Shown here: positions 11,116-29,982 of the stretch, in pieces | How positions within the stretch are numbered: the first letter of the stretch is position 1 | Layout of the letters: each line of letters begins with the position of its first letter | From: Mesorhizobium sp. NZP2298 | GTDB taxonomy: Bacteria > Pseudomonadota > Alphaproteobacteria > Rhizobiales > Rhizobiaceae | NCBI RefSeq assembly: GCF_013170825.1 | Contig: NZ_CP033365.1 | Location: 6,584,001 to 6,648,000, forward strand | DNA length: 64,000 nt | Direction: 5' to 3' | Program-made: the position numbers and the translations under genes | Notes under the pieces: model-generated | Told to the model about the DNA's origin: nothing | Database searches by the model: none | The model's input: only the letters and a program-made list of their open reading frames with translations

Positions 11116-11147
11116 GGCCTGGCCATCAGCGCGGGACCAGACTTCGA

Positions 11148-12353: not shown

Positions 12354-12444
12354 CGTGAATACCCCAATAGGACGCGCCCGCCGACCTGGATGTTGGCAGA
12401 CGCAGATACGACCCTTGGCAAGGATTTGCAGGAGCGAGGTAAAT

Positions 12445-12471
12445 AAGTCAATCAAAATTACCTATTGACTT
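12445..12471. promoter_or_regulatory. Inverted repeat, likely ROK operator 1
   Basis: AAGTCAAT and ATTGACTT form a perfect 8-bp inverted repeat with an 11-base spacer in the divergent region between the ROK gene and the SGNH hydrolase gene. The right arm also contains a -35-like TTGACT. The AAGTCA half-site recurs in the palindrome at 13705-13721. Confidence 0.65.
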
Positions 12472-12522
12472 GATCCGCGACCTGAAAGTAGCTGGCATGG
12501 ACCAAAGACGAGGGAAGCGAAG

Positions 12523-13692: not shown

Positions 13693-13704
13693 TGGCATAT
13701 TTAG

Positions 13705-13753
13705 TAAGTCATTCTGACTTATTATTGACACATGCCAATGTTTGTTGCATAAC
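13705..13753 (+). promoter_or_regulatory. Promoter with palindromic operator before the sugar ABC operon
   Basis: TAAGTCA-TTC-TGACTTA (13705-13721) is a perfect 7-3-7 palindrome. Directly behind it are a -35 TTGACA (13725-13730), a 17-base spacer and a -10-like CATAAC (13748-13753), about 50 bases before the ABC binding-protein gene. The palindrome shares its half-site with the repeat at the ROK gene, so ROK repression is inferred. Confidence 0.7.
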
Positions 13754-13803
13754 GTCCTCGAACGCTGGCGAGCCGTGGCTGCAAGCGTCAATGGGAGGAT
13801 TTC

Positions 13804-14757
13804 ATGCGAACCAATAGTCTGCGGTTGCCGCGCATAGCGCTGGCATGCGCGTTCAGTGCCTTCACCGCCTTCGGACCAGCGGCTGCTGGAGCGGCGGACC
13901 TTTCCTCGATTCTTTTCGTCAATCCGCTGCCCAAATATCCGGCGTGGCGACTGATCGGCGATTGCGTCGCCAATCGGGCGAAGGAACTGAACATTCCCAC
14001 GACGGAATCCGGCCCGACCACCGGCAATCTCGATGCCACCGTCATGATTCAGCAGATACAGCAGGGCATCGCCAACAAGGCGGGAGCGATACTGACCTTT
14101 CCGGCGACGGCGGGATTTGTTCCCCTGCTCCAGCAGGCGGGGAAGGCCGGTATCACGGTCGGCACGTTCTATGGTGCTTCCGGAACGGAATCCGGCTCGA
14201 ACGTAAACATCGGGGCAAACTTCACCCGGGTCGGCGAAATCTTTGTCGAAGCGATAGCAAAGCGCGAGGGCCCGCAGCATGTCGGGCTGATGGCGCAGGG
14301 ACCAAGCGGCGCGGCCAAAGCCTTCGTCGACGGGTTCACCGCGGCGGCCGCGAAGACCCAGAACGTCACCGTGTCCGCTGTGGTCTACACCAATGACGAT
14401 GCCAGCAAGGCGCTTGACCAGGCCAATGCCCTTTTGACGGCGCATCCCGAGGTCAACGTCATCGCCTCGCATATGGGAACCGCCACGCAGGGCGGGACCG
14501 CCGCCATCAAGTCCAAGGGCCTGACCGGCAAGGTCGTATTCGTCGCCAATGGGACGGCAGGTGGCGGCGAGCAAGGACTTGCCGACGGCACCGTCTACAA
14601 GCTGATGCTGCAGGATCTTTGTACGGCGGGGTCCAAAATGGTCGATTCCGTCGCGGCCATCGCTCACGGCGAGACGGTTCAACCGCAGATCGATGTTGGC
14701 GTGCGCATGTTCGACGCGAGCGACTACAAGGAATATCTCGCCAAGGGATGGCAGTGA
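13804..14757 (+). CDS. Sugar ABC transporter, periplasmic binding protein
   Basis: 317 residues with a signal peptide (RIALACAFSAFTAFGPAAAGA) ending near residue 31. The mature part is a ribose/LacI-type (Peripla_BP_4) two-lobe binding protein: SILFVNPLPKYPAWRLIGD opens lobe 1, and ASHMGTATQGGTAAIKSKG is in the hinge/ligand region. It delivers a sugar to the permease encoded downstream. Its stop overlaps the ATPase start (TGATG). The sugar is not evident; the neighbouring GH4 gene hints at an α- or β-glycoside product. Confidence 0.88.
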   Translation: MRTNSLRLPRIALACAFSAFTAFGPAAAGAADLSSILFVNPLPKYPAWRLIGDCVANRAKELNIPTTESGPTTGNLDATVMIQQIQQGIANKAGAILTFPATAGFVPLLQQAGKAGITVGTFYGASGTESGSNVNIGANFTRVGEIFVEAIAKREGPQHVGLMAQGPSGAAKAFVDGFTAAAAKTQNVTVSAVVYTNDDASKALDQANALLTAHPEVNVIASHMGTATQGGTAAIKSKGLTGKVVFVANGTAGGGEQGLADGTVYKLMLQDLCTAGSKMVDSVAAIAHGETVQPQIDVGVRMFDASDYKEYLAKGWQ

Positions 14758-15545
14758 TGGCATTCGCCCAGCCGGACATTCCGGCACCCGCGCTGGAGAT
14801 GCTCGGGGTGGGCAAGTCGTTCGGCAACGTCAAGGCGTTGTCGAATGTCGACATCACCGCCGGGGCGGCCGAAATCCATGCCATTGTCGGCGACAATGGT
14901 GCGGGCAAGTCGACCACGCTCAAGATCATGTGCGGGATTTTCCGTCCGGATCAGGGGCAACTGCGACTGGGCGGAAAGTCGGTCGAGATGCGCGACGCGT
15001 CGGAGGCCCATCACCTCGGCATCTCGGTTGTTCATCAGGACCTCGCCCTTGTCGAATGCCTGGACATCGCCACGAACATGGCTTTGGGAGCCATTCCGCG
15101 CAGAGGACGCTTCCGGCTAGACCGCCGCCGCATGGAGACGGAAGCCGCCAAGGTGCTGGACGAGCTGAAGATAAGGGTCGGCTCGGTCCGCACCCAGATC
15201 GGACTGCTTTCTGGAGGCGAACGTCAAATCGTCGCCATAGCCCGCGCGGTTCGGATGGATCTTCCGATCATGCTTCTCGACGAGCCTACCGCGGCACTGG
15301 GGGTCCGGGAGACGGCCCATGTGGGAGAAATCCTCGGCGAGCTCCGGCAGCAGGGGAAGGCCGTCATCTGCATCAGCCACGACATGGATTTCGTGTTTCG
15401 CAATAGCGACAGCATCACTGTCATGCGGCTGGGGCGCTCGGTCGCGACGCGACGCACCAGGGATACCAGCCGCGATGAAATCATCGGACTGATTACAGGT
15501 GCGATCCAGGGCGACACTGCCAGTTCCGATCCAACCTTTGCCTGA
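14757..15545 (+). CDS. Sugar ABC transporter, ATP-binding protein
   Basis: 262 residues, a single nucleotide-binding domain rather than the double form of RbsA. Walker A is VGDNGAGKSTT, the signature is LSGGERQIVAIARA, Walker B is IMLLDEPTAAL, and the H-loop is ICISHDMDFV. This single-domain form fits frcA-like fructose/ribose importers of rhizobia. The start ATG 14757 overlaps the binding-protein stop codon. Confidence 0.9.
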   Translation: MAFAQPDIPAPALEMLGVGKSFGNVKALSNVDITAGAAEIHAIVGDNGAGKSTTLKIMCGIFRPDQGQLRLGGKSVEMRDASEAHHLGISVVHQDLALVECLDIATNMALGAIPRRGRFRLDRRRMETEAAKVLDELKIRVGSVRTQIGLLSGGERQIVAIARAVRMDLPIMLLDEPTAALGVRETAHVGEILGELRQQGKAVICISHDMDFVFRNSDSITVMRLGRSVATRRTRDTSRDEIIGLITGAIQGDTASSDPTFA

Positions 15546-15561
15546 ACGAGGGAACCAGACC

Positions 15562-16563
15562 GTGGCCAGCGAACGGGCAGAACACCAATCTTCGACAGCC
15601 TCGCAAGGTGTCCTTTCAACACTGATGTTGCGCCAGGAAACGACATTGCTGGCGGTCATCGTGGCGGTTGGAATCGTTGCCACGCTTCGCAACCCCGCAT
15701 TCCTCAACCCGGCAAATCTCACCGACATCGCCCGCGCGGCGGTGATCTATTTCGTCATGGGTTGCGGCGCTTCACTGCTCATGATCGGAGGCGGGCTCGA
15801 TTTCTCCGTGGGCGCCGTCTTCACGCTTGGCGGCATCACCTGCGCGTGGTTGCTGGTGTGGGGAGCGCCCTGGCCGCTTGCGGTCCTGGCGGGCGTGGCG
15901 GCTGGCGCCGCCGTCGGATACGTCAACAGCGTGATCATCGAGCGGCTGCACGTGCCTCCGATCATAGCGACCTTGGGCACCTTCTTCATCGTCGGCGGGC
16001 TATGTGTCCAATTCACTGGCGGAGAAGACATTGTCCCGCTGCCCGAAACGTTTCAGGCCCTGGGTCAGGGAGCCGTGCTCGGGATCCCCTACATCGTTCT
16101 CTATGCCATCGCGCTGGGGCTGCTCTTCTGGTTCCTGCTCGAACAGACGCCGTTCGGTGTCGAGACACGCGCGCTGGGTGGCAATCGGAAAGCCGCGATC
16201 GCCAACGGCCTCAAGGTCAACAGGCTCGATACGATCCTCTACGTCACCGCCGGCGCCACCGCCGGCCTTGCCGGTGTCATCTACGCGGCGCGCGTTGGAA
16301 GTGGCCAGGTTGCCGCCGGTGGCCCCTCGGTCACACTCTCGGTCGTCACGGCCGTACTCATAGGCGGTATCAGCTTGCTCGGAGGCTTGGGGACAATCAC
16401 CGGCGTTGCGGTTGGGGCCCTATTGCTATCGGCGATCGATAACGCCCTCATCGTTGCCAGCGTGCCGCCCCAATACAATAGCATCATCATCGGCGCGATC
16501 CTTATCTGCGCAGTGGCGGTTGATCACATGCGCAGGGAACGTCTGTACAAGCGCCGTCGGTGA
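15562..16563 (+). CDS. Sugar ABC transporter, permease
   Basis: 333 residues from GTG 15562, which has GAGGGA nine bases upstream. About eight to ten membrane helices are visible, with the BPD_transp_2 pattern MIGGGLDFSVGAVFTLGGI near residue 75 and ALGGNRKAAIANGLKVNRLD as the cytoplasmic coupling loop. It forms the channel of the importer encoded by the two preceding genes and closes the operon; the GH4 gene converges on it. Confidence 0.9.
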   Translation: MASERAEHQSSTASQGVLSTLMLRQETTLLAVIVAVGIVATLRNPAFLNPANLTDIARAAVIYFVMGCGASLLMIGGGLDFSVGAVFTLGGITCAWLLVWGAPWPLAVLAGVAAGAAVGYVNSVIIERLHVPPIIATLGTFFIVGGLCVQFTGGEDIVPLPETFQALGQGAVLGIPYIVLYAIALGLLFWFLLEQTPFGVETRALGGNRKAAIANGLKVNRLDTILYVTAGATAGLAGVIYAARVGSGQVAAGGPSVTLSVVTAVLIGGISLLGGLGTITGVAVGALLLSAIDNALIVASVPPQYNSIIIGAILICAVAVDHMRRERLYKRRR

Positions 16564-16586
16564 GGTCTTTCCCGGAGCTCGTCCGA

Positions 16587-17972
16587 TCAGGCCGCGTGGG
16601 TTTTGCGGCTTGTCCGCACCCAGGCCGGCAGCCAGTCGCCGTGGGCAGCCAGGAGATCATCGACCAGTGACCAGATCTGGTCGAGATCGAGCTCCGCCGC
16701 CGTGTGCGGATCCATCATCGCCGCGTGGTAGATGTGCTCGCGGTTCTCACTCACCAGCGCCCGCACCGTCAGTTCCTGGACATTGATGTTGGTACGGATC
16801 AGCGCCGTCAGCTGCGGCGGCAGGTCGCCTATATAGGTGGGCTGGATGCCCGAGGCATCGACGACGCATGGCACCTCGACGGCACAATCGCGGGGCAGCG
16901 AAGTGATGCAGCCATTGTTGCGGACATTGCCATAGATCACCGACGGTTCGCCGGTCCAGACCGAATTCATGATCGAGGAGGCATATTCCGGGGACTGCTC
17001 GACCTCGATGCGGTCGGCCGAACGATAGGCTTGTGCCTGGCCCTTCCAGCGCTCGATCTGTTCGATGCAGCGCTTGGGATATTCGTCGAGCGGGATGCCG
17101 TATTTCTCGATCAGGTCGGGGCGGCTTTCCTTGATGAAATAGGGCGTGTATTCGGCGAAATGCTCCGAACTTTCGGTGACGAAATAGCCGAGCCTGGTCA
17201 GCATGTCGTAGCGCACCTTGTTGGGGCAGCGCGGATTCCAGCCGGCTTTTGGCGCGCGGCCTTCGCGATAGGCGCGAACGAGATCCGGATAGAGATCGCG
17301 ATAGGAACCGCCCGGCTGGCGATGCTCGAACTTCAGATAGAACGACATGTGGTTGATGCCGGCCGAGCGATAGCGGATCTCCTCGTAGGGAAGATCGAGA
17401 TCGTGCGCCAGTTCCATCGCCGTGCCCTGCACCGAATGGCAGAGGCCGACCTGCCGGATGCCAGGGTATTTCTCCGATATCGCCCAGGTGTTGATTGCCA
17501 TCGGGTTGACATATTGCAGCATGATCGCCTGCGGGCAGACGGTGAGCATGTCCTCGCAGATCGTCCACAGATGCGGCACGGTTCTCAAGCCGCGCATGAT
17601 GCCGCCGACGCCGAGCGTGTCGGCGATGGTCTGGCGCAGGCCGTATTTCTTCGGCACTTCGAAGTCGGTCACGGTGCAGGGCTCGTAGCCGCCGATCTGA
17701 AAGGCAACGACGACGAAGTCAGCACCGACCAGCGCCTTGCGCTGGTCGGAATAAGTCTCGGCCTTTGCTTTGACGCCGAGCGTCGCGATCAGCTTGTCGA
17801 CGACGACAGCGCTTTCTTCCAGCCGCTGCGGATTGATGTCCATCAGCGCGATTGTCGCTCCCGACAAGGCCTGCCGCTGCAGCACGTCGCCGACAATGTT
17901 CTTCATGAACACCGTCGAGCCGGCGCCTATGAATGTGATCCTGGGATTTCTTGCCACGCCAATCTCCGGCAT
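16587..17972 (-). CDS. GH4 family α-glucosidase/α-galactosidase (NAD-dependent)
   Basis: 461 residues. The N-terminal Rossmann start NPRITFIGAGSTVF binds NAD. VNPMAINTWA, VGLCHSVQGTA (metal-ligand Cys and His) and YRSAGINHMSF are family 4 hallmarks. GH4 enzymes use NAD and a divalent metal in a redox-type hydrolysis of glycosides inside the cell. It is convergent with the sugar ABC operon, so it may process the imported sugar. AglA and MelA types cannot be separated here. Confidence 0.88.
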   Translation of the reverse strand: MPEIGVARNPRITFIGAGSTVFMKNIVGDVLQRQALSGATIALMDINPQRLEESAVVVDKLIATLGVKAKAETYSDQRKALVGADFVVVAFQIGGYEPCTVTDFEVPKKYGLRQTIADTLGVGGIMRGLRTVPHLWTICEDMLTVCPQAIMLQYVNPMAINTWAISEKYPGIRQVGLCHSVQGTAMELAHDLDLPYEEIRYRSAGINHMSFYLKFEHRQPGGSYRDLYPDLVRAYREGRAPKAGWNPRCPNKVRYDMLTRLGYFVTESSEHFAEYTPYFIKESRPDLIEKYGIPLDEYPKRCIEQIERWKGQAQAYRSADRIEVEQSPEYASSIMNSVWTGEPSVIYGNVRNNGCITSLPRDCAVEVPCVVDASGIQPTYIGDLPPQLTALIRTNINVQELTVRALVSENREHIYHAAMMDPHTAAELDLDQIWSLVDDLLAAHGDWLPAWVRTSRKTHAA

Positions 17973-18364
17973 AAGTTCAGGCTTGATGCGGCTTCGACTA
18001 TGCCGCGCTCAAGCCTCCGCCGTCCAGCCTGGGCGAACTGGACGACAGCCTGCGGCGCTGGACATCGCCCTTTCGCCTGCTGAACTCGAGTGCGAGCTCG
18101 ATCGCATGGTCGCGCCCGGGCGCGGTCGGTGAAGATGGCGGCGCCGGGACGGAGGCTAACTGGCCACAAGAGGCCGGGCCTCAGGCCATTCCGGCGGTGC
18201 AAGCACCCGAGGAAGCCGCCTTTCGATGGCATCTCTTTTCCTGCCAGAAATCGACAGCTGGGCGCTGGACAGGCCGAATTCCCGTGCTATAACCCACGCG
18301 CTTTCAAGGGGCGCCCATGGCGCCTCATGAAATCCGGTTCACGAGAATTCGTTTGCCGGAACAG
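17973..18364. other. Intergenic stretch between GH4 gene and tRNA-Phe
   Basis: I see no convincing gene here. Open frames are shadows or lack start signals and family patterns. The promoter of the GH4 gene (leftward) and that of tRNA-Phe (rightward) should lie inside. Confidence 0.5.
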
Positions 18365-18440
<76 letters not shown>

Positions 18441-18652
18441 TCCCCTCTTCTCCCGACAGTCTCTTTCGCCGAAGGCTCTACGCTTCTGTCTCGGCAACTA
18501 GCTGAAATACTTACTGATTTCGGTTCCCAAAGCGCGGATGGTCGGGTTTCGTGGAATTTCGGCGCAGTTGGTCCAACGAGGCGGGGGGCTGGTATTTTCG
18601 CTGGTATTGGAGATCCTGATGGTATCGATGCAGCCAAATGGAGGTCCCGAAA

Positions 18653-19963
18653 ATGGCTCTTTCCGACGTAAAATGCCGTAATGCCCGACCCGCTTCCAAG
18701 CTCGTGAAATTGTCTGACGGTGGCGGGCTCCAGCTTTGGGTGCAGCCTACCGGATCTCGCCTATGGCGCCTCGCCTATCGTTTTGGCGGCAAGCAGAAGC
18801 TTCTGGCGTTGGGCAGCTATCCCCTCATCTCCCTCGCTGAGGCACGCGAGGCGCGCGATACCGCCAAACGTCTCCTCCTACGTGGCATCGACCCCGCACA
18901 GGAGCGTAAGTCGCAAAAGGCTTCGGCGGAGGACACCTTTCGCTCAATCGCGGAGGACTATGTCGACAAGCTGAAGAAGGAGGGACGTGCCGACCGGACC
19001 ATCACCAAGGTCAAATGGCTGCTCGACTTTGCCTATCCAACGTTTGGGGACAAAAGCGTTCGGGAGATCGATCCGGCTACAATTCTTGCCGCTCTCCGCA
19101 GCGTGGAGGTTCGTGGTCGATACGAGTCGGCCAGGCGAATGCGCTCCACCATCGGCAGCGTGTTTCGATATGCAATCGCAACCGCACGCGCCGATGTAGA
19201 TCCGACGATCGCCCTGAGGGGCGCACTCGTCGGTCCGACGGTCACGCCCCGTGCCGCGGTTACCGATCCTAAGGCCTTGGGAGGCTTGCTGAGGGCGATT
19301 AATGCATTTGACGGACAGCCTACAACCCGAGCCGCTCTGAAGCTGATGGCCCTGCTATTTCCCCGCCCCGGCGAGCTGCGCGCGGCCGGATGGGACGAGT
19401 TCGATTTCGAAAGCTCGGTGTGGAGCATCCCTGAAGGACGCATGAAGATGCGACGGCCGCACCGCGTACCTCTTTCCACGCAGGCCGTCAGCGTCCTGAC
19501 CTCACTTAGAGAAATCTCTGGTGGTGGATCGCTGTTGTTTCCTAGTGTTCGATCGGGTTCGCGTCCGATTTCCGACAACACGCTTAACGCAGCCCTTCGC
19601 CGTATGGGCTATGGCAAAGAAGAAGCTACCGCGCACGGCTTTCGAGCAACGGCATCAACTCTGCTAAACGAATGCGGCAAGTGGCACCCGGACGCCGTAG
19701 AGCGGCAGCTGGCCCACATTGAGAACAACGACGTTCGGCGCGCCTATGCCCGGGCAGAGCACTGGGAAGAGCGCGTCAGGATGATGCAATGGTGGGCCGA
19801 TTATCTGGATGAACTCGAGAGCAAAAACTCGCGGGTGGTCTCAATCGGGGGACGCGAGGCAAGCCTGCTGTCCATACATCCTCGCGAGGGTCTAGTTTGG
19901 AAGCCAACAGCGACGGTTCGCCAAACGACGAGTCGAACCTCCAACCTCCGAAAATCACACTGA
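18653..19963 (+). CDS. intS: P4-type tyrosine integrase (symbiosis island IntS-like)
   Basis: 436 residues. ATG 18653 has GGAGG in front and is preferred over 18638. It has an N-terminal DUF4102 arm-binding domain (MALSDVKCRNARPASK to ~90), a core-binding domain (~95-200) and a catalytic domain with Arg243 (PRPGELR), His328/Arg331 (HGFRATAST), His355 and Tyr365 (NDVRRAYARAEHW). It catalyses site-specific recombination between the tRNA-Phe end and the circular element. A degenerate copy of its C-terminal half lies at 29486-29982. Confidence 0.9.
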   Translation: MALSDVKCRNARPASKLVKLSDGGGLQLWVQPTGSRLWRLAYRFGGKQKLLALGSYPLISLAEAREARDTAKRLLLRGIDPAQERKSQKASAEDTFRSIAEDYVDKLKKEGRADRTITKVKWLLDFAYPTFGDKSVREIDPATILAALRSVEVRGRYESARRMRSTIGSVFRYAIATARADVDPTIALRGALVGPTVTPRAAVTDPKALGGLLRAINAFDGQPTTRAALKLMALLFPRPGELRAAGWDEFDFESSVWSIPEGRMKMRRPHRVPLSTQAVSVLTSLREISGGGSLLFPSVRSGSRPISDNTLNAALRRMGYGKEEATAHGFRATASTLLNECGKWHPDAVERQLAHIENNDVRRAYARAEHWEERVRMMQWWADYLDELESKNSRVVSIGGREASLLSIHPREGLVWKPTATVRQTTSRTSNLRKSH

Positions 19964-20320: not shown

Positions 20321-21751
20321 TTATATCGGTTTAAACATGCTCTCAGCTGCATCGGAGTTAAGGCGCGCCCAGAACTCCATCGCGTACCTGTCCGTCATGC
20401 CGGCGACGAAGTCGCAGACCTCACGTGCTTTGACGCTTACATTAGGCGCTTTCCGAATGCGGCCCCGGACGTCGGCGGGCATCAACAAGTCACCCCGGTC
20501 TCCCATCAGAGCCTTGAAGATGTCGGTGACGAGGTCGTAGCCCCGGTATTCACCAAGCTTCACGCGCGGCGCATAGATCGCAGCCACAAATGTGTACTGC
20601 TTCAACACCTCCTTGCGGAGCATGAGCTTCTCCGGAAGGTATATCTGGCTGAGCGATGGGCACTCTTTGTGGGCTTTGAGTTCGACCCCCGAGATGAACT
20701 GGTGTACGAGCTCCGATGAGAACTCTGTCCTCTTGTAGCCGTCCTCGCTCATGACCTTGGAGGTGCGGTACGCCTCGGCGAATGTCAGCAGGCTCTCGTC
20801 GCGTTTCGCTTGTTGGGCGATGTCGTCTTCTATCACCATGCCGTCGAGCGGCGAATCCGCATCCTCCGCCGGCTGCTCTATTATCTCGGAGAATATCTCC
20901 ATGAAGACAGCCTGTATCTCATTGATGGTCACCGTCCGCTTCATCGGCTTCGAGGCCCGCTTCGCTACCGCGCTGAGCAAGGCGTCGTCCGACGCCAGCA
21001 TCTCCGCAGGGGACAGGAACCCGACTTTGAAGCAGTCCTCGAGGTCGTAGACCGAGTAGGCGATGTCGTCCGCCAGATCCATGATGCTGCATTCGATCGT
21101 GCAGAACTTCTCCTCAGCACCGAGGACGTAGCCGTTGAGCACCGATGCCTTGACCCGGTCGACGATAATTTTCTCCGAGCCGTAGTAGCCTTTGACAAAG
21201 CCGTCCGCCGCCTTCCGGATGGCGGGTATCTCGTTGTCGTACTTCAGAGTGGCCGCGATGGTCCGATGGCAGAGATTGAGCCCTGCCCTATCGTCCCCCG
21301 CCAAAGGTTCGGCGTACCGCAACTTCTTCTCAAGGCGCGTCAGGATTCGCAGGGTCTGCGCGTTCCCCTCGAAGCCGCCGTAGCGTTGCATTGCCTTATC
21401 GAGCGCGCTCTCGCCGTTGTGGCCGAACGGCGGGTGACCGATGTCGTGCACGAGCCCGGCGGTCGCGCAAAGCCTTGGGTCGATCTTGCCGCCGAGATCC
21501 TTGTCGTAGTCGTAGTTGATGCGCTCGGCGATGCCCTGAGCGATCTGCGCCACTTCCAGAGAGTGGGTGAGCCGGTTGCGGAAGAAGTCCGACTCCCTGC
21601 TTGGGAAGACCTGGGTCTTGCCCTGTTGCCGGCGGAAGCTTGCGGAATGGATTATCCGCCCGTAATCTCGGCCGAACTCGTCGCGCCACTTTTTGTCGTG
21701 GCCGTCCTTCTCGGGGACTACTTCTCGGCTGCGGTCCGCATCGGTGTACAT
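20321..21751 (-). CDS. dGTP triphosphohydrolase (HD-domain dGTPase)
   Basis: 476 residues. dGTPases cleave dGTP to deoxyguanosine and triphosphate. The HD signature is complete: His63 (RLTHSLEVAQIAQGI), His102-Asp103 (LVHDIGHPPFGHNGE) and His106. A downstream Asp in DLADDIAYSVYDLED gives the fourth metal ligand. Length and pattern fit the Dgt type. Some dGTPases are known anti-phage defences that drain dNTPs. It begins three bases after the small coiled-coil gene and closes the leftward operon of the accessory cassette, so a role tied to nucleotide pools in that system is inferred. Confidence 0.88.
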   Translation of the reverse strand: MYTDADRSREVVPEKDGHDKKWRDEFGRDYGRIIHSASFRRQQGKTQVFPSRESDFFRNRLTHSLEVAQIAQGIAERINYDYDKDLGGKIDPRLCATAGLVHDIGHPPFGHNGESALDKAMQRYGGFEGNAQTLRILTRLEKKLRYAEPLAGDDRAGLNLCHRTIAATLKYDNEIPAIRKAADGFVKGYYGSEKIIVDRVKASVLNGYVLGAEEKFCTIECSIMDLADDIAYSVYDLEDCFKVGFLSPAEMLASDDALLSAVAKRASKPMKRTVTINEIQAVFMEIFSEIIEQPAEDADSPLDGMVIEDDIAQQAKRDESLLTFAEAYRTSKVMSEDGYKRTEFSSELVHQFISGVELKAHKECPSLSQIYLPEKLMLRKEVLKQYTFVAAIYAPRVKLGEYRGYDLVTDIFKALMGDRGDLLMPADVRGRIRKAPNVSVKAREVCDFVAGMTDRYAMEFWARLNSDAAESMFKPI

Positions 21752-21754
21752 GGT

Positions 21755-21922
21755 CTAGGCCGGCTGATTAACGTGGCCGTGTTGCTGTCCATCTTTGGCA
21801 TCATCCTGCGCCTTCTTCTCCTGCGCACGCTGCTCGGCCAGGATCCGTACCGTCTCCCGCAGAGTGCTCAGTTCCCGCTTCGCCTCCTGCCTTGCGTGCA
21901 CGACAGCCTGGAAGTTTGCCAT
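21755..21922 (-). CDS. Small coiled-coil protein
   Basis: 55 residues starting at ATG 21922 with AGGAG nine bases upstream. The sequence (AVVHARQEAKRELSTLRETV, ILAEQRAQEKKAQDD) is charged and has heptad spacing, predicting one long helix. It lies three bases before the dGTPase start and 77 bases after the ATP-grasp gene, so it belongs to the leftward operon. It could be a scaffold or regulator of one of its neighbours. No family recognised. Confidence 0.6.
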   Translation of the reverse strand: MANFQAVVHARQEAKRELSTLRETVRILAEQRAQEKKAQDDAKDGQQHGHVNQPA

Positions 21923-21999
21923 TCTATTTCTCCTGCTTGTTTGTCGACCCAAGGTTGGACCCTGGATGTTCTCATTATGTTCTATTTCGGCGACCTTGG

Positions 22000-23406
22000 C
22001 TATGCATCGTCCGCCCGAATCATGCGCGTAGGTACCTCGGCCTTTCGTGCGACGTCGGCTATGTGGCTCGTCAGGCCGACCTCCCCCCGCAGCAGGAGCC
22101 CGTGCCCCGTCGGAAGCGACTGTACCCGCAGCCGCAACGATTCGAGACCCTCCGATACGTCGAATACTACCCATCCGTCCGCCTCGCCCGGAACGATGAT
22201 CGAGCCGGCCGAACGGCTAGCGCCGCGGTGAAGTTGCATCACCCAGACCTGCTCGCCGTCGAACGCCCACTCGAAGCGTACGTCGCCCAGCGCGGCGACG
22301 AGGCGGGCGTGCGTGGCGTGGACGGTCGCCACCACTACATCCGGAAGGGCCATCGGCGGCGTAGTGCCTTGCATGAAGTCCTCGCCGGTGCCGCAGGCGC
22401 CTTCAACATAGAGGATGCGGTCCGCACCCTGCACCGCTGCGCCCGACCATACGGCCGGCACGGCCTCCTGGGCCAGCACGGATACGATCGCGGTGCCGTC
22501 GGGATCTTCCCTCAACAGTAGGGAGAAGGGGTCCAACCATCCTCGCGAGGTGGTGAACTTGCCCGGTACCTGTTCCACCGGACACGTCCTGGTCCAAATC
22601 TCCTTGGACCCGGTCGGCGTGCCGAAAGCAAATGGGGCCAAGCGCCGGCCAATTACCGTGCTCCGTGGAACCGGAAAACCAGCCAGGTGCGCGACGAGCA
22701 GGCCGAACGCTTTGTCGCCCATCATCCGGGAGAAATCGTTGGGCCACCGAACGTCCACCCGATTGCCGGGCAGGGTTTCGTGGGGACCAAACTCCCAATA
22801 GAGAACGTGCGACTGCCGGTAACCCCGCGGTGCGGGGTGGAGGCTGAACTCGAGGCGGGCCGCCTCGCCATGGGCGAGCTCGGGCCCGAATCCAAAGACG
22901 GTTTGGAAGGCGGCGTTGGCCCACGGGGCGGGGAGGGAGGCAAAACCTTCCCTCTCGACGCCACGGGGCGTCGCGTCGGGACGGAACTCCACGACATCAT
23001 CGAGGATCACGCCGGAGACGCCGCCATCGGACACGTCAATGGTCTCATTAACTATGGCGAAGCTTCCCTCCGCCGCGAAACGGGCCAGGGCGGTCAGAAC
23101 GGCCTCAGAGTCCTGCAGCGCATAGAGGAACTCGCGGCTCTGCGAAGACGCTTCGCTGAAGGTGCGAATGTTGACCGTTCCTTCCCCGCTCCGTTCGAAC
23201 AGCGCCTGCACGGCTTCCGAGGCGGTGGCGAATTGGTGGTTGGCCGGCAATCCGGCCAGCCGGCAGTATTCCTGCCGGGGTCCCGAGGGCGACGGCGAGA
23301 AGCTCACGAACTGGGCGACGTTGAACCTCTCGGCCAGTCGGTCCAGCGTGGCGTCCTTGCGGAAGTCAGGCGGGGCGAGGTGAGACAGGTTTCCGGAATG
23401 GATCAT
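22000..23406 (-). CDS. ATP-grasp protein related to PEP synthase/PPDK nucleotide-binding domain
   Basis: 468 residues. The C-terminal third carries VRFEWAFDGEQVWVMQLHRG, the pattern of the ATP-binding domain of PEP synthase and pyruvate phosphate dikinase (DIEWAxDG...LxxLQxRP). The swivelling phosphohistidine and PEP-binding domains of those enzymes are absent, so it is an orphan ATP-grasp module. An N-terminal segment DATLDRLAERFNVAQFVSFS may bind a substrate. Likely activities are ATP-dependent ligation or phosphotransfer; the substrate is unknown. It leads the leftward operon with the coiled-coil and dGTPase genes. Confidence 0.6.
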   Translation of the reverse strand: MIHSGNLSHLAPPDFRKDATLDRLAERFNVAQFVSFSPSPSGPRQEYCRLAGLPANHQFATASEAVQALFERSGEGTVNIRTFSEASSQSREFLYALQDSEAVLTALARFAAEGSFAIVNETIDVSDGGVSGVILDDVVEFRPDATPRGVEREGFASLPAPWANAAFQTVFGFGPELAHGEAARLEFSLHPAPRGYRQSHVLYWEFGPHETLPGNRVDVRWPNDFSRMMGDKAFGLLVAHLAGFPVPRSTVIGRRLAPFAFGTPTGSKEIWTRTCPVEQVPGKFTTSRGWLDPFSLLLREDPDGTAIVSVLAQEAVPAVWSGAAVQGADRILYVEGACGTGEDFMQGTTPPMALPDVVVATVHATHARLVAALGDVRFEWAFDGEQVWVMQLHRGASRSAGSIIVPGEADGWVVFDVSEGLESLRLRVQSLPTGHGLLLRGEVGLTSHIADVARKAEVPTRMIRADDA

Positions 23407-23617
23407 CGGCGCTTGGGATCCAACATGGTCATCAGGTCTCGCTGCTCATTGGTTTTACACTTGGGACGGTAAACACTCCGTTGGCAAGAGACAAATCGAC
23501 CGCAGCTTTTTGCACCTGCAAAAGATGGTACTGCGACAGCCTGGCGACTTGAGGCACCGGGCCACGGATGGGGTGCCCGACGATTCTCGCTGCCGAATCC
23601 CTTTCGCGACCTCTCTA

Positions 23618-23920
23618 TCATATGAGAGCCGAAAGGTTATTAAGAATATGCAGAATATGCATTCGATGCTCCTCCGGCGCGTTGCGCAGGCGGCTCATGG
23701 CCTCCTCCAACTCCGAGCCGGACGCAGTTGCGGTGCTGTCCGCCTTCACGAGCCAGTCGGCGAGGTCGGCCTCGAGCCCGGCGGAAGGCGGCACCTTGCG
23801 CGAAAGAACCTTGCTCACATGCCCTTGGGTGACGCGGCAGAACTCAGCCAACTCGCGCTGGCGAGTGCGAGTGCTCCTTAGGACGGCGTTCACGGTATCG
23901 ATGATATCCGTCGATTGCAT
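23618..23920 (-). CDS. XRE-type helix-turn-helix regulator
   Basis: 100 residues from ATG 23920. An HTH of the XRE type lies near residues 15-45 (RTRQRELAEFCRVTQGHVSK, then VLSRKVPPSAGLEADLADWL). The remainder is a helical tail. A longer start at 23953 (GAGGAA before it) is possible. It sits at the point of divergence between the two operons of the cassette, 211 bases from the ATP-grasp gene, and its start is within ~52 bp of the OGG-like gene start. The natural inference is that it represses one or both. Confidence 0.7.
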   Translation of the reverse strand: MQSTDIIDTVNAVLRSTRTRQRELAEFCRVTQGHVSKVLSRKVPPSAGLEADLADWLVKADSTATASGSELEEAMSRLRNAPEEHRMHILHILNNLSALI

Positions 23921-23971
23921 TGACCTGTGTTTCACGAAATGAATATAATGCATACTTCCTCGGAACAATTT

Positions 23972-24796
23972 ATGCAACACGTCATCTCCCTCCACAACGG
24001 CACACCCGTGAGCCTCTTCCTGCCCGATCCTGCGGAGTCCGTGGTCCCGGGAGTGGCTTGGGGCCGGTTTGAAGAAGCGTTGACCCCTGCATTCTGGGCC
24101 GCACAGGCCTGGATGCAGGAATTGGCGGGCGGTGAGGCGTTCGGCCTTGGCGACACCCTGGCGGAGGAAGTGGCCGCCTGCCTGCTCGGTGGGTACGGTG
24201 CGCCCGCTGAAGTCGGTCTCGCGGCATATGGGAGGGTGCGGCAAGCGATGCGCAGCACTGCCGTCGTTGACGTCGGTGCGATCGAGGCCATGCTGACGAT
24301 GCCTCTGAATGTTGGCGATAGGTTGGTCCGGTATCGCTTCGCTAGGCAAAGGTCGCGACAACTGGGCGAGTGCCTCGCGAGGATCGCCGATATCGACGAG
24401 GCCGCGCTGGACGACATCTCGCTCAGGGACGCACTGACGCGGCTGCCGGGGATCGGCCCCAAAACGGCATCTTGGGTTGTCCGGAACCGCAGGGCGAGCG
24501 ACGAGGTCGCGATACTCGATATCCACATCGTGCGGGCGTGCGTCCATATGGGAATATTCGGCGGCGGTGCGACGCCTGCGAGTGACTACGTGGGCCTCGA
24601 ATCCCGTTTCATCGGGTTCTGCCGCGCTGCCGGCCTACGCGCTTCCTTGCTCGATGCACTGATGTGGCGAACCATGCGATCGATCGGCCCGTCATTCGCG
24701 GGCTTGCGGCCAGCGTCGAATCCGAGTTCAACTGGAGGACGCGGCAAGGGGAAGACAGCATGTCCGGAGGTGGTGGCTCGAGCAGGGACGATCTGA
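23972..24796 (+). CDS. OGG-like helix-hairpin-helix DNA glycosylase/lyase
   Basis: 274 residues. Helix-hairpin-helix LPGIGPKTASWVVRN is followed by VAILDIHIVRA. Lys164 and Asp183 match the catalytic Lys249 and Asp268 of human OGG1, so a bifunctional base-excision/lyase activity is expected, classically on 8-oxoguanine. Start M at 23972 gives MQHVISLHNGTPVSLFLPDP; ATGs at 23927, 23939 and 23948 are also in frame. OGG-like enzymes are accessory genes of type IV CBASS together with QueC. Here a QueC-like gene is three genes downstream, but there is no CD-NTase. It overlaps the next gene by 37 bp. Confidence 0.78.
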   Translation: MQHVISLHNGTPVSLFLPDPAESVVPGVAWGRFEEALTPAFWAAQAWMQELAGGEAFGLGDTLAEEVAACLLGGYGAPAEVGLAAYGRVRQAMRSTAVVDVGAIEAMLTMPLNVGDRLVRYRFARQRSRQLGECLARIADIDEAALDDISLRDALTRLPGIGPKTASWVVRNRRASDEVAILDIHIVRACVHMGIFGGGATPASDYVGLESRFIGFCRAAGLRASLLDALMWRTMRSIGPSFAGLRPASNPSSTGGRGKGKTACPEVVARAGTI

Positions 24797-25098
24797 GTCC
24801 GGGAATCGGAGGGGGGCCGGACACCTGCGGCCAGACCTACAACGCCCCCATCAACAGCCCTAAGCCTTCCGTGCTGGGGCCCGTGTCCATCGGGACCGTT
24901 CTCACCGTCGACGTCGTTCCCACCGGCACTACCAGCACCCTTGTCGTCCGTGACGCGATGGGACGAATCGGCGGCTCCCTGACTTTCCTGGGCTATACGC
25001 AGGTCATCAACTGCATCGTCCAACGTGGCGTGGCCTACACGGCGACGGTGCTGGCCATAGCGGGCGGCGTCTACACCGTCGAGGTGGTACCCGTCTGA
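24760..25098 (+). CDS. Small protein with Gly-rich N-terminus, unknown family
   Basis: 112 residues from ATG 24760, which has AAGGGGAAG just upstream; the frame stays open to 24664 but that part is inside the OGG gene. The first residues are MSGGGGSSRDD, then GIGGGPD, then a β-rich domain of about 75 residues with alternating hydrophobics (IGTVLTVDVVPTG, VYTVEVVPV). There is no signal peptide or membrane segment. It overlaps the OGG-like gene and its stop overlaps the kinase start (TGATG), so the operon is tightly coupled. A flexible Gly tail on a small β domain suggests a substrate, tag or scaffold. I do not recognise the family. Confidence 0.6.
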   Translation: MSGGGGSSRDDLSPGIGGGPDTCGQTYNAPINSPKPSVLGPVSIGTVLTVDVVPTGTTSTLVVRDAMGRIGGSLTFLGYTQVINCIVQRGVAYTATVLAIAGGVYTVEVVPV

Positions 25099-26300
25099 TG
25101 CGCAGCCTTTCGGTGGTAGGCGGGATCTACCGCGAGCGCTGCCTGCAACCGACCTGGGATGCCGTCCTCGGATCCGCCGGTCGTGCCGCCCAGGCACTCG
25201 GCACCGTCAAGGCTTCGCGGAAGCGGTTGCACGCTTACATGAGCGATCGGGCGCGGAGCGAAGTCGAACTCCTCGCCGAACTCGCCGACTTCGAGTTGGT
25301 ACCCACGGACCTGCCTTTCCTGGTGTTGTTTGACTACGCACATACGCTTGGCGACCCTGTCATATCGCCGCCGATCGGCTTGATGGGCCAGCGACCGCCG
25401 CTCGCCGTCAAAGACGACGTCGTGCTCCGCTACGGCATGCTCGAGGGCGATGCCGTCGTCGCCGCCAACATCGCGGTTTACGATCCACAATCCGCTTTCG
25501 GCGCTGCCGCGTTCACTGCCAACGGCTCGTCGGCCAAGAGGCTTGCAGTGGTGCTCAACAGGCTCGAGTTGCGCTCGATCACCGGCGAGGAAGATCCTCG
25601 CGCCGGTGCCGACTGGCTGTTCCGGAACGACGGTGCCGAGGTGGTCGTGCTGAAGATGGGGGCCTTGGGCGCACGGGTAATCACGCCGGACGGGGCGTGG
25701 GAAATCCCCCTCTATCGATCGGAGCGCGTTTGGAAATTGGGATCCGGCGACGTCTTCTCCGCAACGTTCGCTGCAATGTGGGCCCTGGAGGACATGGCGC
25801 CCGATGACGCGGCGGACATCGCGTCGCGGGCGACCGCGTGGTACTGCGGCCATCGCGCCCTTCCCACCCCGGACGCCGCCACGCTTGCCACGATGCCGTT
25901 CGAGCAGGTGCGCCCGGGTACGGGCCGCATATACTTGGCGGCGCCGTTCTTCGACCTCGGGCAGCGCTGGCTGGTGGAGGAAAGCAGGCGCGCCCTGCTG
26001 CAAGCAGGTGCCCAGGTGTTCTCGCCCATCCACGAGGTCGGACCCGGCGCCGCCGAGGTCGTCGCTCCGGCGGATCTCGCCGGCATCGAGGACTGCGACG
26101 TACTGCTGGCGATCGTCAACGGGATGGACCCCGGGACCGTCTTTGAGGCGGGCTACGCCATCCGCAAGGGCATACCGGTCGTCGCGCTGGCCGAGAATTC
26201 GCGGGAGGAGGATCTCAAGATGTTCGTAGGCTCCGGGGCGACGGTGACCAGCGACTTCGCGACGGCCATCTACCAGGCTGTCTGGAGACTGCCGCGATGA
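25098..26300 (+). CDS. PfkB-like kinase fused to nucleoside 2-deoxyribosyltransferase
   Basis: 400 residues. Residues 1-265 resemble a PfkB/ribokinase fold: VVVLKMGALGARV and then KLGSGDVFSATFAAMWA, whose GSGD (215-218) matches the GAGD active site with catalytic Asp218. Residues 277-395 are a nucleoside deoxyribosyltransferase/DRHyd domain: RIYLAAPFFDLGQRWLVEES, CDVLLAIVNG, and DPGTVFEAGYA with the nucleophile-type Glu350. Such domains cleave or exchange the N-glycosidic bond of (deoxy)nucleotides. The fusion suggests base release and sugar or nucleoside phosphorylation in one protein. It overlaps both neighbours by one to four bases. Confidence 0.75.
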   Translation: MRSLSVVGGIYRERCLQPTWDAVLGSAGRAAQALGTVKASRKRLHAYMSDRARSEVELLAELADFELVPTDLPFLVLFDYAHTLGDPVISPPIGLMGQRPPLAVKDDVVLRYGMLEGDAVVAANIAVYDPQSAFGAAAFTANGSSAKRLAVVLNRLELRSITGEEDPRAGADWLFRNDGAEVVVLKMGALGARVITPDGAWEIPLYRSERVWKLGSGDVFSATFAAMWALEDMAPDDAADIASRATAWYCGHRALPTPDAATLATMPFEQVRPGTGRIYLAAPFFDLGQRWLVEESRRALLQAGAQVFSPIHEVGPGAAEVVAPADLAGIEDCDVLLAIVNGMDPGTVFEAGYAIRKGIPVVALAENSREEDLKMFVGSGATVTSDFATAIYQAVWRLPR

Positions 26301-26893
26301 CTACCGCCTTGCTCCTGTCGGGCGGCATGGACTCTGTCAGCATCGCATGGTGGCTTCGGCCCGACGTCGCGTTGACGATCGACTACGGCCAGAAGCCGGC
26401 CGAAGCCGAGATCGACGCCGCCGGCCACGTGGCCCAACTACTCGGCATCTCGCACGAGGTGATCCGGGTCGACTGCTCGTCCCTGGGTTCTGGCGATATG
26501 GCCGGTACCGCGCCCGACGCCGCGGCGCCGGTGTCGGAATGGTGGCCCTTCCGGAACCAACTGCTCGTCACGCTGGCCGGAATGGCGGCGGTGCGCCATG
26601 GCGTGTCGCGGCTGCTGATAGGCGCTCTGGCCACCGATGGCGCCCACGCCGACGGTCGGCCCGAGTTCGTGGAGCGGGCATCGCAGCTCATGGCCATGCA
26701 GGAGGGCGGGATAGTCGTCGAGGCGCCCGCCATCGAACTCGATGCGGTCGAGCTGGTGCGTCGATCGGGAATCGATCAGGGCACGCTTGCCTGGGCGCAT
26801 TCCTGTCATACCGGCAACTACGCTTGCGGCAGGTGCCGCGGCTGCACCAAGCACTTCAACACATGGCAGGCCCTTGGCTGGACTCCTCACTGA
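26297..26893 (+). CDS. QueC-like 7-cyano-7-deazaguanine synthase family enzyme
   Basis: 198 residues, slightly short of usual QueC (~220-240). The PP-loop SGGMDSVS (8-15) binds ATP, and Cys170, Cys177, Cys180 and Cys183 (CHTGNYACGRCRGC) form the C-terminal zinc site. QueC makes preQ0 from 7-carboxy-7-deazaguanine. No queD, queE, folE or tRNA-guanine transglycosylase gene is nearby, so this copy is not part of a queuosine operon. QueC homologues are also defence components (QatC, and type IV CBASS). It starts inside the kinase stop codon (ATGA). Confidence 0.85.
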   Translation: MTTALLLSGGMDSVSIAWWLRPDVALTIDYGQKPAEAEIDAAGHVAQLLGISHEVIRVDCSSLGSGDMAGTAPDAAAPVSEWWPFRNQLLVTLAGMAAVRHGVSRLLIGALATDGAHADGRPEFVERASQLMAMQEGGIVVEAPAIELDAVELVRRSGIDQGTLAWAHSCHTGNYACGRCRGCTKHFNTWQALGWTPH

Positions 26894-27554
26894 CGAACCC
26901 CACCCTCGAACGCCAGCAGGGAAATGGGTTGCGTGGCTGCCTCCCGACTGCACCCTATCGGTGCTGGACCCGCCGCAGCCAACGCATGAGCACGCCTTCA
27001 AGGAAATGCTGCAGGCCCGCCGATCAAGCGTCGGGGGCGATATTGCTTGGTCGGACATCGAGGCGGTGCTCTGGCATTCGGCCAGAACGGTCACGAACGA
27101 CGGTGTCGGACGCGCCGGGATCGAGATTGAGCGGCGGCCAGCGCCAGCGGCGGGCGGGCTTCACTGCATCCATATAGTCTGCCAGATGTGCGCAAACGAT
27201 GGGCAGCCGAGGCTGTACCTGCCCAGGCATGGGTTCGCTGAGCTCAACCACCGCGCTGGCTCGGCGGCATTAAATCGCGCGGAGGTGGTCCAACTGCTTC
27301 CGGGGGCCGCAGGCTGCACGCTTCGGTTTGTGGCCGACATGGACAAGGTCTCAGCGGCGTACAACAATCCGGAGAGCTTGGTGTGGCGCGATTCCGGAGC
27401 CCTGGCGGCCACAATAGGTCTCGTGGCCGAATGGCTCGACCTCTCTGCAAACATGCTGGGTATTGCGGGCGGAGAATACATGCGGTCGATCGGATTTCCT
27501 GGCGAACGCTTCCTCGCCGTCGGCGGTATCCAAATTTCGTCGAGGTCTCCCTAG
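26874..27554 (+). CDS. SagB/ThcOx-like nitroreductase-family protein
   Basis: About 226 residues. RPAPAAGGLHCIHIV matches the R-PSAGG-H motif of SagB-type FMN oxidoreductases, and AAYNNPESLVWRDSGALAAT, LVAEWLDLSANMLGIAGG and VGGIQI are the usual C-terminal nitroreductase blocks. The start is uncertain: ATG 26742 lies too deep inside the QueC-like gene, TTG 26874 and GTG 26961 are the realistic options. FMN-dependent oxidation or reduction of a modified base, nucleotide or peptide is plausible. It ends the rightward operon. Confidence 0.65.
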   Translation: MAGLLTDEPHPRTPAGKWVAWLPPDCTLSVLDPPQPTHEHAFKEMLQARRSSVGGDIAWSDIEAVLWHSARTVTNDGVGRAGIEIERRPAPAAGGLHCIHIVCQMCANDGQPRLYLPRHGFAELNHRAGSAALNRAEVVQLLPGAAGCTLRFVADMDKVSAAYNNPESLVWRDSGALAATIGLVAEWLDLSANMLGIAGGEYMRSIGFPGERFLAVGGIQISSRSP

Positions 27555-28276: not shown

Positions 28277-29464
28277 ATGGAAGAGACCGTACAGCGCATC
28301 GAGCCGGCGCGCCTGGAAGACGTTGCGGAGCCTATCTCCGACGCGCTGGCTGAGCTGTCAGCAAGCTCGGCGGTTCTCGGCGCCAAGCTGCATCCGCGCA
28401 CGGCCGCGAACCTGGCGGATCTCGTGCGCATCATGAACACCTATTACAGCAACCTGATCGAGGGCCACAACACGCGCCCCCGCGACATCGAACGCGCCCT
28501 CGCCGGCGAATTCGACAAAGACCAGGAACGACGCAACCTGCAGGTGGAAGCCGCGGCCCATGTTCGACTGCAGGGGGAAATCGATCGCCTGGCAGCGGAG
28601 GGTCAGCTCCCAGAACCGGCTTCGCTTGATTTTTTGCGCTGGCTGCATGCGGAATTCTACCGTGACGCCGATGAGGCGATGTTGCGCATTCGCGGCGCAG
28701 ACAGAGAATTCTTGATGGTTCCGGGTCGGTGGCGATCACAGCCTGAACATGATGTCACTGTCGGCCGCCACCAGCCGCCGTCAAGCGATCGCGTCGAAGC
28801 GTTCATGGAGCATTTCGCTAGCCGGTACCGCTTCCAACGTACGGGCAAAGCGGCTAGGATATTGGCGATTCCGGCCGCGCATCATCGGTTCAATTATATT
28901 CATCCCTTCCCAGACGGCAATGGACGCGTCAGTCGCTTGATGAGTCACGCCATGGCCCATGAGGCAGGAATCGCCGCGCACGGGCTGTGGTCGATTTCCC
29001 GAGGCCTGGCGCGGGGTCTGGAAAGCCGCGGCGACTATAAACGCATGATGGATCACGCCGACATGCCACGCCAAGGCGATCGCGACGGCCGCGGTAATCT
29101 TTCTATGCGGGCGCTGGCGGATTTTACCTTATGGTTTCTACGCGTATGCATCGACCAGGTCAGTTTCATGTCCAGCCTGTTCGATTTGAACCAACTTGCC
29201 CGGCGCCTGCAGCGGTTCGTTCAACGCTACGACCTGAAGCCGGAAGCTTTCCGGCTGCTCGAGGAGGCGCTTCTGCGCGGCGAGTTCGATCGCGGTGAGG
29301 CCTCACGTATCGCTGGCTTGCCGGAACGTACGGCCCGCCGCGTGTTTACCGAGGTGCTCGAGCTTGGCCTGCTTGCGTCCGATACCCCGAAAGGACCGGT
29401 ATCGCTACGCTTCCCGGTCGACACGTTGGACGAACTGTTTCCTAAGCTATTTCCGGAAACTTAG
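28277..29464 (+). CDS. Fic-domain protein (AMPylase), class II
   Basis: 395 residues. The Fic active-site motif HPFPDGNGR is at 209-217 (catalytic His209). An N-terminal inhibitory helix carries SNLIEG at 58-63, the (S/T)xxxE(G/N) motif whose Glu blocks ATP binding, so this is a self-inhibited class II Fic. Residues 1-40 form the usual Fic_N region, and a C-terminal winged-helix-like segment ([20 protein letters not shown]) could bind DNA. Such proteins AMPylate target proteins. It lies between the accessory cassette and the integrase remnant, with no separate antitoxin gene. Confidence 0.88.
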
Positions 29465-29485
29465 CGTCGCATAACTGCGCCTACT

Positions 29486-29982
29486 GTTTCCCCGCCCCGG
29501 CGAGTTGCGAGCCGCCGGATGGGAAGAGTTCGACTTCAAAGGCTCGGTGTGGACCATCCCGGAAGCAGGCATGAAAATGCGGCGGCCGCACCGCGTTGCA
29601 CTTTCGAGGCAGGCCATCAAAATCCTGACCGATCTCAGAGACATTTCCGGCAGCGAGGCGCTGCTGTTTCCAAGTGCGCGATCGGGTTCTCGTCCGATTT
29701 CCGACTATACACTTAACGCCGCCCTGCGTCGCATGGGTTACAGCAAGAAAGAAGCAACGGCTCACGGTTTCCGAGCAACGGCATCAACTCTGTTGAATGA
29801 ATGCGGCAAGTGGCATCCAGACGCAAGAGAGACAGCTGACCCATATTGAAAAGAACGACGTTCGGCGCGCTTCCGCCAGGGCAGAGCACTGGGAAAAGCG
29901 CGTCAGTATGATGCAGTGGTGGGCCGATTATCTGGACGAAATTGGGTGCACGAAACCTGCAGTTGAACCCAAACAAGTGTAA
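29486..29982 (+). pseudogene. Integrase remnant (C-terminal half, frameshifted)
   Basis: The sequence matches intS residues ~234-390 closely. FPRPGELRAAGWEEFDF, MKMRRPHRVALSRQAIKIL, and TAHGFRATASTLLNECGKW are all recognisable. Near 29825 there is a net 2-base deletion relative to intS that shifts the frame, and the continuation (QLTHIEKNDVRRASARAEHW) reads on in another frame. The catalytic Tyr codon of intS is replaced by Ser (RRASARAEHW). The N-terminal half is missing and the fic gene ends 22 bases before the homology starts. It is a dead second integrase, likely from a tandem element. Confidence 0.85.

Follow-up and report, generated by a model that had tools for sequence, protein, structure and literature searches.

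Next to an integrase in a 64,000-nucleotide stretch of the genome of Mesorhizobium sp. NZP2298 (contig NZ_CP033365.1, positions 6,584,001 to 6,648,000; hereafter the window), we describe a gene cassette that is probably (probability of about 0.6) a mobile anti-phage, or conflict, system of the QueC protein-conjugation kind, of which it would form a third branch. Two divergent gene runs lie to the right of tRNA-Phe and the integrase. The rightward run encodes an OGG-like glycosylase (OGG), a small protein with a Gly-rich N-terminal tail (GLY), a fusion of PfkB kinase-like and nucleoside 2-deoxyribosyltransferase domains (NDT), a QueC-like PP-loop ligase (QUE) and a SagB-like nitroreductase (SAG), while the leftward run encodes a dGTPase, a 55-amino-acid (55-aa) protein and an ATP-grasp/phospho-His protein (PPS). 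The conjugation reading comes from the presence of a QueC-family enzyme beside a tailed partner, as in the type IV cyclic oligonucleotide-based anti-phage signalling system (CBASS) and in qatABCD. Protein modification, the identity of the attached base, sensing of DNA ends and restriction of phages are what we infer from this arrangement. A preliminary description, made from the letters of the window, had singled out this gene set beside the integrase and suspected a nucleotide-based conflict system. The gene set was confirmed, with six enzyme-type genes, two small open reading frames (ORFs) and a helix-turn-helix (HTH)-like ORF that overlap by 1, 4, 20 and 37 bases in places. The interpretation is supported in part: the cassette is recurring, mobile and of a conflict-type nucleotide kind, turning up in distant genomes, on plasmids and close to defence genes.

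The cassette recurs as a unit

A first homologue search, limited to 7,999 scored candidates, returned at least 1,311 homologues of the NDT fusion. To collect loci, 30 NDT homologues were aligned and a one-genome-per-species collection was scanned; 80 of the 99 confirmed loci were kept, and merging their NDT proteins at ≥85% identity left 59 groups. The neighbourhood search called for by the preliminary description thus found the genes together in 59 non-redundant locus groups across phyla: GLY and NDT occur in all 59, QUE in 58, OGG in 57 and SAG in 43. The sole group without QUE (L044) lies on a contig that stops 30 bases past NDT. Among the five families, pairwise protein distances are mutually correlated (r 0.73–0.87), values that 200 label permutations do not approach (≤0.20). 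Such multi-gene co-occurrence with correlated divergence indicates that the cassette is not a chance assembly. Starting the other way round, from QUE in viral contigs, gave seven loci, with GLY and NDT in six of them and OGG in four, the seventh being cut at a contig edge.

Bacterial carriers belong to the Alpha-, Beta- and Gammaproteobacteria, Myxococcota, Acidobacteriota, Bacteroidota, Verrucomicrobiota and Spirochaetota, some of them represented by metagenome-assembled genomes (MAGs) only. Cassette matches are also carried by 38 plasmid records, and the plasmid carriers include one cyanobacterium and haloarchaea. The distribution of the QueC-like gene is sporadic: QUE was found at close identity (83%) in one of 24 other genomes of the same genus, and of the 384 other class members sampled, one has a match at E≤1e-30. 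CBASS, Gabija, TIR, Thoeris-type and restriction-modification genes flank the loci, both near them and at ≥5 kb, in a scan with PADLOC and Pfam of random ORF samples from crude gene calls (140 of 283 near ORFs and 140 of 243 far ORFs); dGTPase models account for five near members and for none among the 25 far models listed. Gene families outside the core occur in at most 7 of the 59 groups, the HTH-like family, dGTPases and antisense shadow ORFs excepted. Finally, QueC and dGTPase of the island come on top of other copies: the window genome (G000, contig 1) has two complete, differing QueE-QueD-QueC operons, at 6917561 and 7041277, and two dGTPases besides the island copy.

A tailed partner for a QueC-like ligase

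The M-[S/G/A/T]-G tail of GLY is near-invariant and predicted to be disordered. In 51 of the 59 groups, [SG]G comes directly after the start codon; reading the other eight by eye gave six with start-A-G or start-T-G, one with MSSSG and one unclear. Most of GLY is a confidently folded domain in the predicted model, which matches the HIRAN fold. Pfam searches with 60 aligned GLY relatives gave scattered matches in one to three members only (best E 0.0035), and GLY is thus predicted to be a HIRAN-fold protein that is featureless by sequence. ORFs with a Gly/Ser-rich start are mostly GLY in these neighbourhoods: 64 were counted in 106 partly redundant loci, of which 60 are GLY, two are TIR proteins (L093 and L096) and two are unrelated. 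Two GLY copies are present in the groups of L051, L060, L062, L064, L069, L070 and L071; in all of these but L069, the second copy (MGG.. or MSG..) comes after QueC and the SagB-like gene is missing.

The two tailed TIR proteins belong to loci that bridge the cassette and type IV CBASS. A plasmid of Rhizobium sophoriradicis (L093:9004-13366) carries NDT, a fusion of TIR with a tRNA-guanine transglycosylase (TGT), OGG and QueC and, behind these, a TIR protein starting with MGGGSS; both the gene order and the tail recur on a plasmid of Agrobacterium sp. MA01 (L096:8947-13358). In Pfam, the TIR domains of these loci fall under ThsB-type TIR and TIR_2. The TGT part, assessed in L093 only, has Cap10 (9ntn, E 6e-8) as the best solved match of the TIR–TGT protein, with matches to the TgtA and TGT models below their curated cut-offs. 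No CD-NTase is annotated in the L093 and L096 stretches. Since the tail sits here on a TIR protein and QueC is retained, the tail occurs on different cargo while QueC stays. Judging from their sequences, L093 and L096 would represent a TIR-based relative of the type IV CBASS machinery.

QUE has the features of the QueC subfamily named Cluster 4, i.e. SGGxDS, CH(x)5CxxCxGCxK and a PfkB-NDT neighbour, and it keeps the PP-loop, RN and Cys4 motifs. It departs from canonical QueC by HADG in place of YPDC in the window copy and by the lack of linkage to QueD or QueE. D119, which aligns with the Asp of Cap9 that reads the Watson–Crick edge of the base, is kept in 59 of 59 sequences. Among structure matches, Cap9 (9nto, E 3e-7) ranks behind the QueC structures 2pg3 and 3bl5. 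Most likely, QUE modifies the N-terminus of GLY, rather than a free base or a base in DNA.

The base proposed to be attached

The preliminary description held that the cassette attaches or modifies a deazaguanine-type base. The attachment can now be sharpened to the GLY N-terminus as its probable site; the deazaguanine nature of the base is not secured. Indeed, QueE, surveyed for 44 of the 80 loci (lying in 43 genomes), was matched by a two-sequence profile in 30 genomes, among them G081 with a weak and partial match. Sixteen of the 43 genomes (the 13 misses, G081, G041 and G067) were re-searched with an 11-sequence profile: the 13 misses and G081 gave nothing (three genomes) or partial matches of ≤55 bits, and G041 and G067 gave 230–246 bits, their own or a near-identical QueE being part of the profile. 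As independent controls, eight further carriers that had not contributed their QueE to the profile reached 180–244 bits, covering almost the full model. In the 14 QueE-poor carriers, canonical QueC (>190 bits) is missing in nine and PTPS/QueD in six; G071, a QueE-positive control, also has no canonical QueC above 190 bits. The 14 include several draft genomes or MAGs; UR115 (G052) is titled complete.

With QueE absent or weak in 14 of 43 carrier genomes, 7-carboxy-7-deazaguanine (CDG) as a general substrate was not upheld, unless it is imported. CDG is possible in the window genome, and something other than CDG made by the host could serve as the base. Tentatively, QUE might be a non-CDG ligase that joins a guanine-type base, freed by dGTPase, NDT and OGG, to the Ser/Gly N-terminus of a HIRAN-type sensor of DNA ends, so that the tag would report nucleotide breakdown and license effectors. 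The base would then be an ordinary or damaged one, coming from deoxynucleoside triphosphates (dNTPs) or phage DNA, and the effectors would be the dGTPase, TIR or a nuclease.

A separable dGTPase/ATP-grasp arm

The leftward genes behave differently from the rightward cassette. Of the 59 groups, 15 have a dGTPase homologue at most ~8 kb from NDT, at several positions and sometimes several kb off; the dGTPase as an obligatory part of the cassette was rejected on this count. PPS is present in 7 of 59 groups. The window dGTPase reaches the TIGR01353 cut-off and scores 374.8 bits against NF041026, below its 400-bit cut-off; relatives in related loci are annotated as 'anti-phage deoxyguanosine triphosphatase'. 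PPS fits the superfamily of pyruvate phosphate dikinase (PPDK), phosphoenolpyruvate (PEP) synthase and rifampin phosphotransferase, with a predicted ATP-grasp and swivelling His domain fold. Its ATP-grasp family is large, with 1,713 matches; of 297 genomes sampled from the order, 5 have it at E≤1e-30, that of the window included.

It is doubtful that the window merely holds two unrelated, adjacent defence systems, dGTPase-CC-ATP-grasp (CC being the 55-aa ORF) and QueC-HIRAN, with no functional link. The low counts of PPS and dGTPase and the distance of some dGTPases from NDT speak for this view, as does L117 (4645-7721), where the ATP-grasp/phospho-His protein, a small ORF and the dGTPase stand alone and nothing in the 11 kb examined matches the QueC set. 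Against it, besides the divergent window-type arrangement with an ATP-grasp partner, the dGTPase is found inside the rightward operon: it overlaps QueC in L092 (a Moraxella plasmid), follows QueC by ~14 bases in L052 and touches SAG in L026/L030. Moreover, dGTPase and PPS dock in further arrangements (L043, L084 and L100), and in L116 (4890-10665) they adjoin a divergent OGG–QueC–NDT set with an NDT of ~27% identity. L116, in which OGG has no Pfam match and was assigned by eye, is a further subtype of the cassette theme. Altogether, the single gene set of the preliminary description holds for the recurring rightward cassette, whereas the dGTPase/55-aa/ATP-grasp arm is a separable module, once standing alone. 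Other partners of the cassette are TIR, an Mrr-type endonuclease and a Dam methylase. As a side observation, no dGTPase accompanies the ATP-grasp protein in L119 (3976-8781), where its neighbours are an HD-domain-like ORF and a protein resembling a nucleotide kinase–adenylosuccinate synthetase fusion (domains assigned by eye).

Base-handling enzymes and what they could serve

The active-site residues of OGG and NDT are intact. OGG K179 and D198 (numbered from the GTG start), which we take from OGG1 to be catalytic, are present in 58 of 58 aligned sequences, the window included, as are E350 of NDT and the PfkB GSGD (215-218) in 60 of 60. Both enzymes are therefore likely active, which would fit base supply or base removal. 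All 42 aligned SAG members match TIGR03605, and SAG is on this family match a genuine SagB relative.

These enzymes could also be placed in a purine or deazapurine salvage operon, in which bases would be recycled by NDT/PfkB and the QueC-like protein, with regulatory or incidental roles for the rest. Intact NDT and PfkB residues, together with the metabolic origin of the QueC family, would suit this proposal, which Libby et al. (PMC13329287) state for Cluster 4. We consider it distinctly unlikely, since QUE is sporadic even within genus and class and travels on plasmids, since a tailed HIRAN protein and OGG, which are not salvage genes, are nearly always present, and since the tail moves to a TIR protein. 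A system of DNA modification or base excision that targets 7-deazaguanine in phage DNA (Dpd-like or directed against modified DNA) would account for the invariant Lys/Asp pair of OGG and for the ability of QueC and NDT to handle bases. It is very unlikely given that no TGT or Dpd match was found among the ten window proteins scanned and that QueE is often missing from carriers, and it leaves the tailed HIRAN protein unexplained. Finally, a natural-product cluster of the ribosomally synthesised and post-translationally modified peptide (RiPP) kind, with GLY as the precursor, the SagB-like enzyme as its oxidase and the QueC-like ligase attaching a base, would make sense of the SagB family matches, the small Gly-rich protein and the PP-loop ligase, and is highly improbable because GLY is predicted to be mostly a folded domain and not a short precursor, 16 of 59 groups lack SAG, a conserved peptidase or exporter was not found (no further family exceeding 7 of 59 groups) and dGTPase, TIR, Mrr and Dam partners occur.

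Proposed mechanism

In the protein-conjugation system that we favour, GLY would act as a DNA-end sensor, with its predicted HIRAN fold and the flexible N-terminal tail read from its sequence; removal of Met would expose Ser/Gly-Gly. By analogy with Cap9 and QatC, QUE would activate a nucleobase, be it a 7-deazaguanine or a different guanine-like base, at the expense of ATP and join it to the GLY N-terminus. Through cleavage or exchange of (deoxy)nucleosides, PfkB-NDT may provide this base or recycle it, and OGG may bind or remove the tagged base, as the intact active sites of both would allow. The SagB-like flavoenzyme could perhaps trim or oxidise the product. Upon infection, the tagged sensor would license an effector, which is seen to be exchangeable between loci: a dGTPase (here with its ATP-grasp/phospho-His partner), a TIR protein or an Mrr-type endonuclease.

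Several observations weigh against this scheme. The HIRAN match is at the fold level only (Foldseek E 5e-3, 11% identity) and the window GLY tail begins with Ser, not Gly. In QUE, YPDC has become HxDG, a His replacing the stacking Tyr in 56 of 59 sequences, and the QueE-poor carriers argue against CDG as discussed above. The distance correlation has no host-gene control, phage records searched with NDT gave no match, and the 196 near versus 69 far PADLOC models are redundant and support no claim of enrichment. If the scheme is true, a third, widespread branch and the tailed TIR loci would show QueC conjugation to be a general immune tagging chemistry with swappable sensors and effectors. Besides, carriers without QueE offer a natural route to asking which base is attached.

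Locus layout and integration site

Features of the locus are listed in Table 1. An HTH is annotated in L090 at the position matching that of the HTH-like ORF, and the 55-aa ORF had no family match in the profile scan.

Table 1. Features of the cassette and its integration site (positions in the window)
Feature	Position	Strand	Basis
tRNA-Phe(gaa), integration site	18365..18440	+	ARAGORN, Rfam
Tyrosine integrase (PF00589, Arm-DNA-bind_3)	18638..19963	+	family match
dGTPase (DGT), optional effector module	20321..21751	-	TIGR01353, 482 bits; PADLOC dGTPase, 1e-118
55-aa ORF (CC), dGTPase module	21755..21922	-	counterpart (39%) at same place in L117
PPS, ATP-grasp and swivelling phospho-His, rifampin phosphotransferase/PPDK-like, 468 aa	22000..23406	-	
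HTH-like regulator, divergent	23618..23920	-	sequence look; BLAST match in 33/80 loci
Predicted sigma-70-like promoter of rightward operon	23920..23949	+	11/12 matches; consensus only
OGG/helix-hairpin-helix (HhH) glycosylase-like protein (OGG)	23972..24796	+	PF22175; GTG start numbering
Small protein GLY, 112 aa, MSGGGG acceptor-like tail and predicted HIRAN-fold domain	24760..25098	+	
PfkB kinase-like/nucleoside 2-deoxyribosyltransferase fusion (NDT)	25098..26300	+	family match
QueC-like PP-loop ligase (QUE), 'Cluster 4' signature, 198 aa	26297..26893	+	PF06508
SagB-like nitroreductase (SAG)	26874..27554	+	TIGR03605; ORF opens 26742, proposed start TTG 26874

The tRNA-Phe is an integration hotspot: a homologue of the window integrase (72–93%) is found at this site in 4 of 11 relatives' loci, several of which end at contig edges, and a fifth holds a short piece of 48%. 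No second copy of the tRNA end was found within the window. Farther right (28277-29950), there is a Fic protein (PF02661) and, after it, the 3' part of another integrase, whose DNA is 80–86% identical to the first; from its sequence, this region appears to be a decayed neighbouring element of the same tRNA-Phe hotspot. In several relatives, sequence matching 10–11.1 kb of the window adjoins tRNA-Phe, so that ~7 kb (11119-18212) left of the tRNA are extra or rearranged here.

Comparison with known systems

The full cassette was not found in the open-access literature searched (bioRxiv excluded), in line with the view of the preliminary description that no such system had been described; that view needs correction for the QueC subfamily with its PfkB–NDT neighbour, described in July 2026 as Cluster 4 and read as purine salvage (Libby et al. 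2026, PMC13329287). QUE belongs to the same subfamily, and the conjugation proposed here differs from the salvage suggested in that paper, whose main text makes no mention of HIRAN, OGG, SagB, dGTPase or glycosylase. A text search of the DefensePredictor paper (PMC13092281) gave no match for QueC, PfkB or nitroreductase.

HIRAN domains, as in HLTF, Rad5 and HamB of Hachiman, bind 3' single-stranded DNA ends; unlike these, GLY is stand-alone, shares 8–20% identity with them and has a Gly-rich N-terminal tail. The island dGTPase resembles anti-phage dGTPases by its TIGR01353 family and differs by its score under the NF041026 cut-off and by its pairing with an ATP-grasp/phospho-His protein.

Protein deazaguanylation is known for a single defence system, and a second one, whose reaction is still unresolved, is suspected of it (PMC13279940). 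In qatABCD, the MGTS tail of QatB and its G2 are essential (PMC13279940). The cassette likewise pairs a QueC-family protein with a tailed partner and has separate, optional effectors. However, QUE, with 198 aa, has no QatC extensions and keeps the active-site Asp that QatC replaced, its partner is not a helical QatB, and neither the QatA KAP ATPase nor the QatD TatD protein was matched among the ten window proteins. In type IV CBASS, Cap9 attaches CDG to its CD-NTase partner, at the N-terminal Gly of an MGGS motif (PMC13279940; PMC11996544). No CD-NTase model was matched by PADLOC among the ten window proteins; the cassette tail sits instead on a HIRAN-fold protein, and PfkB-NDT and a SagB-like enzyme are added. 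The type IV CBASS operon includes OGG, and both systems thus combine a QueC-like ligase, an OGG-like protein and a partner with a Gly-rich N-terminal tail, which reads MSGG in the window and MGGGSS in L093, the bridging locus that also has a Cap10-like TGT.

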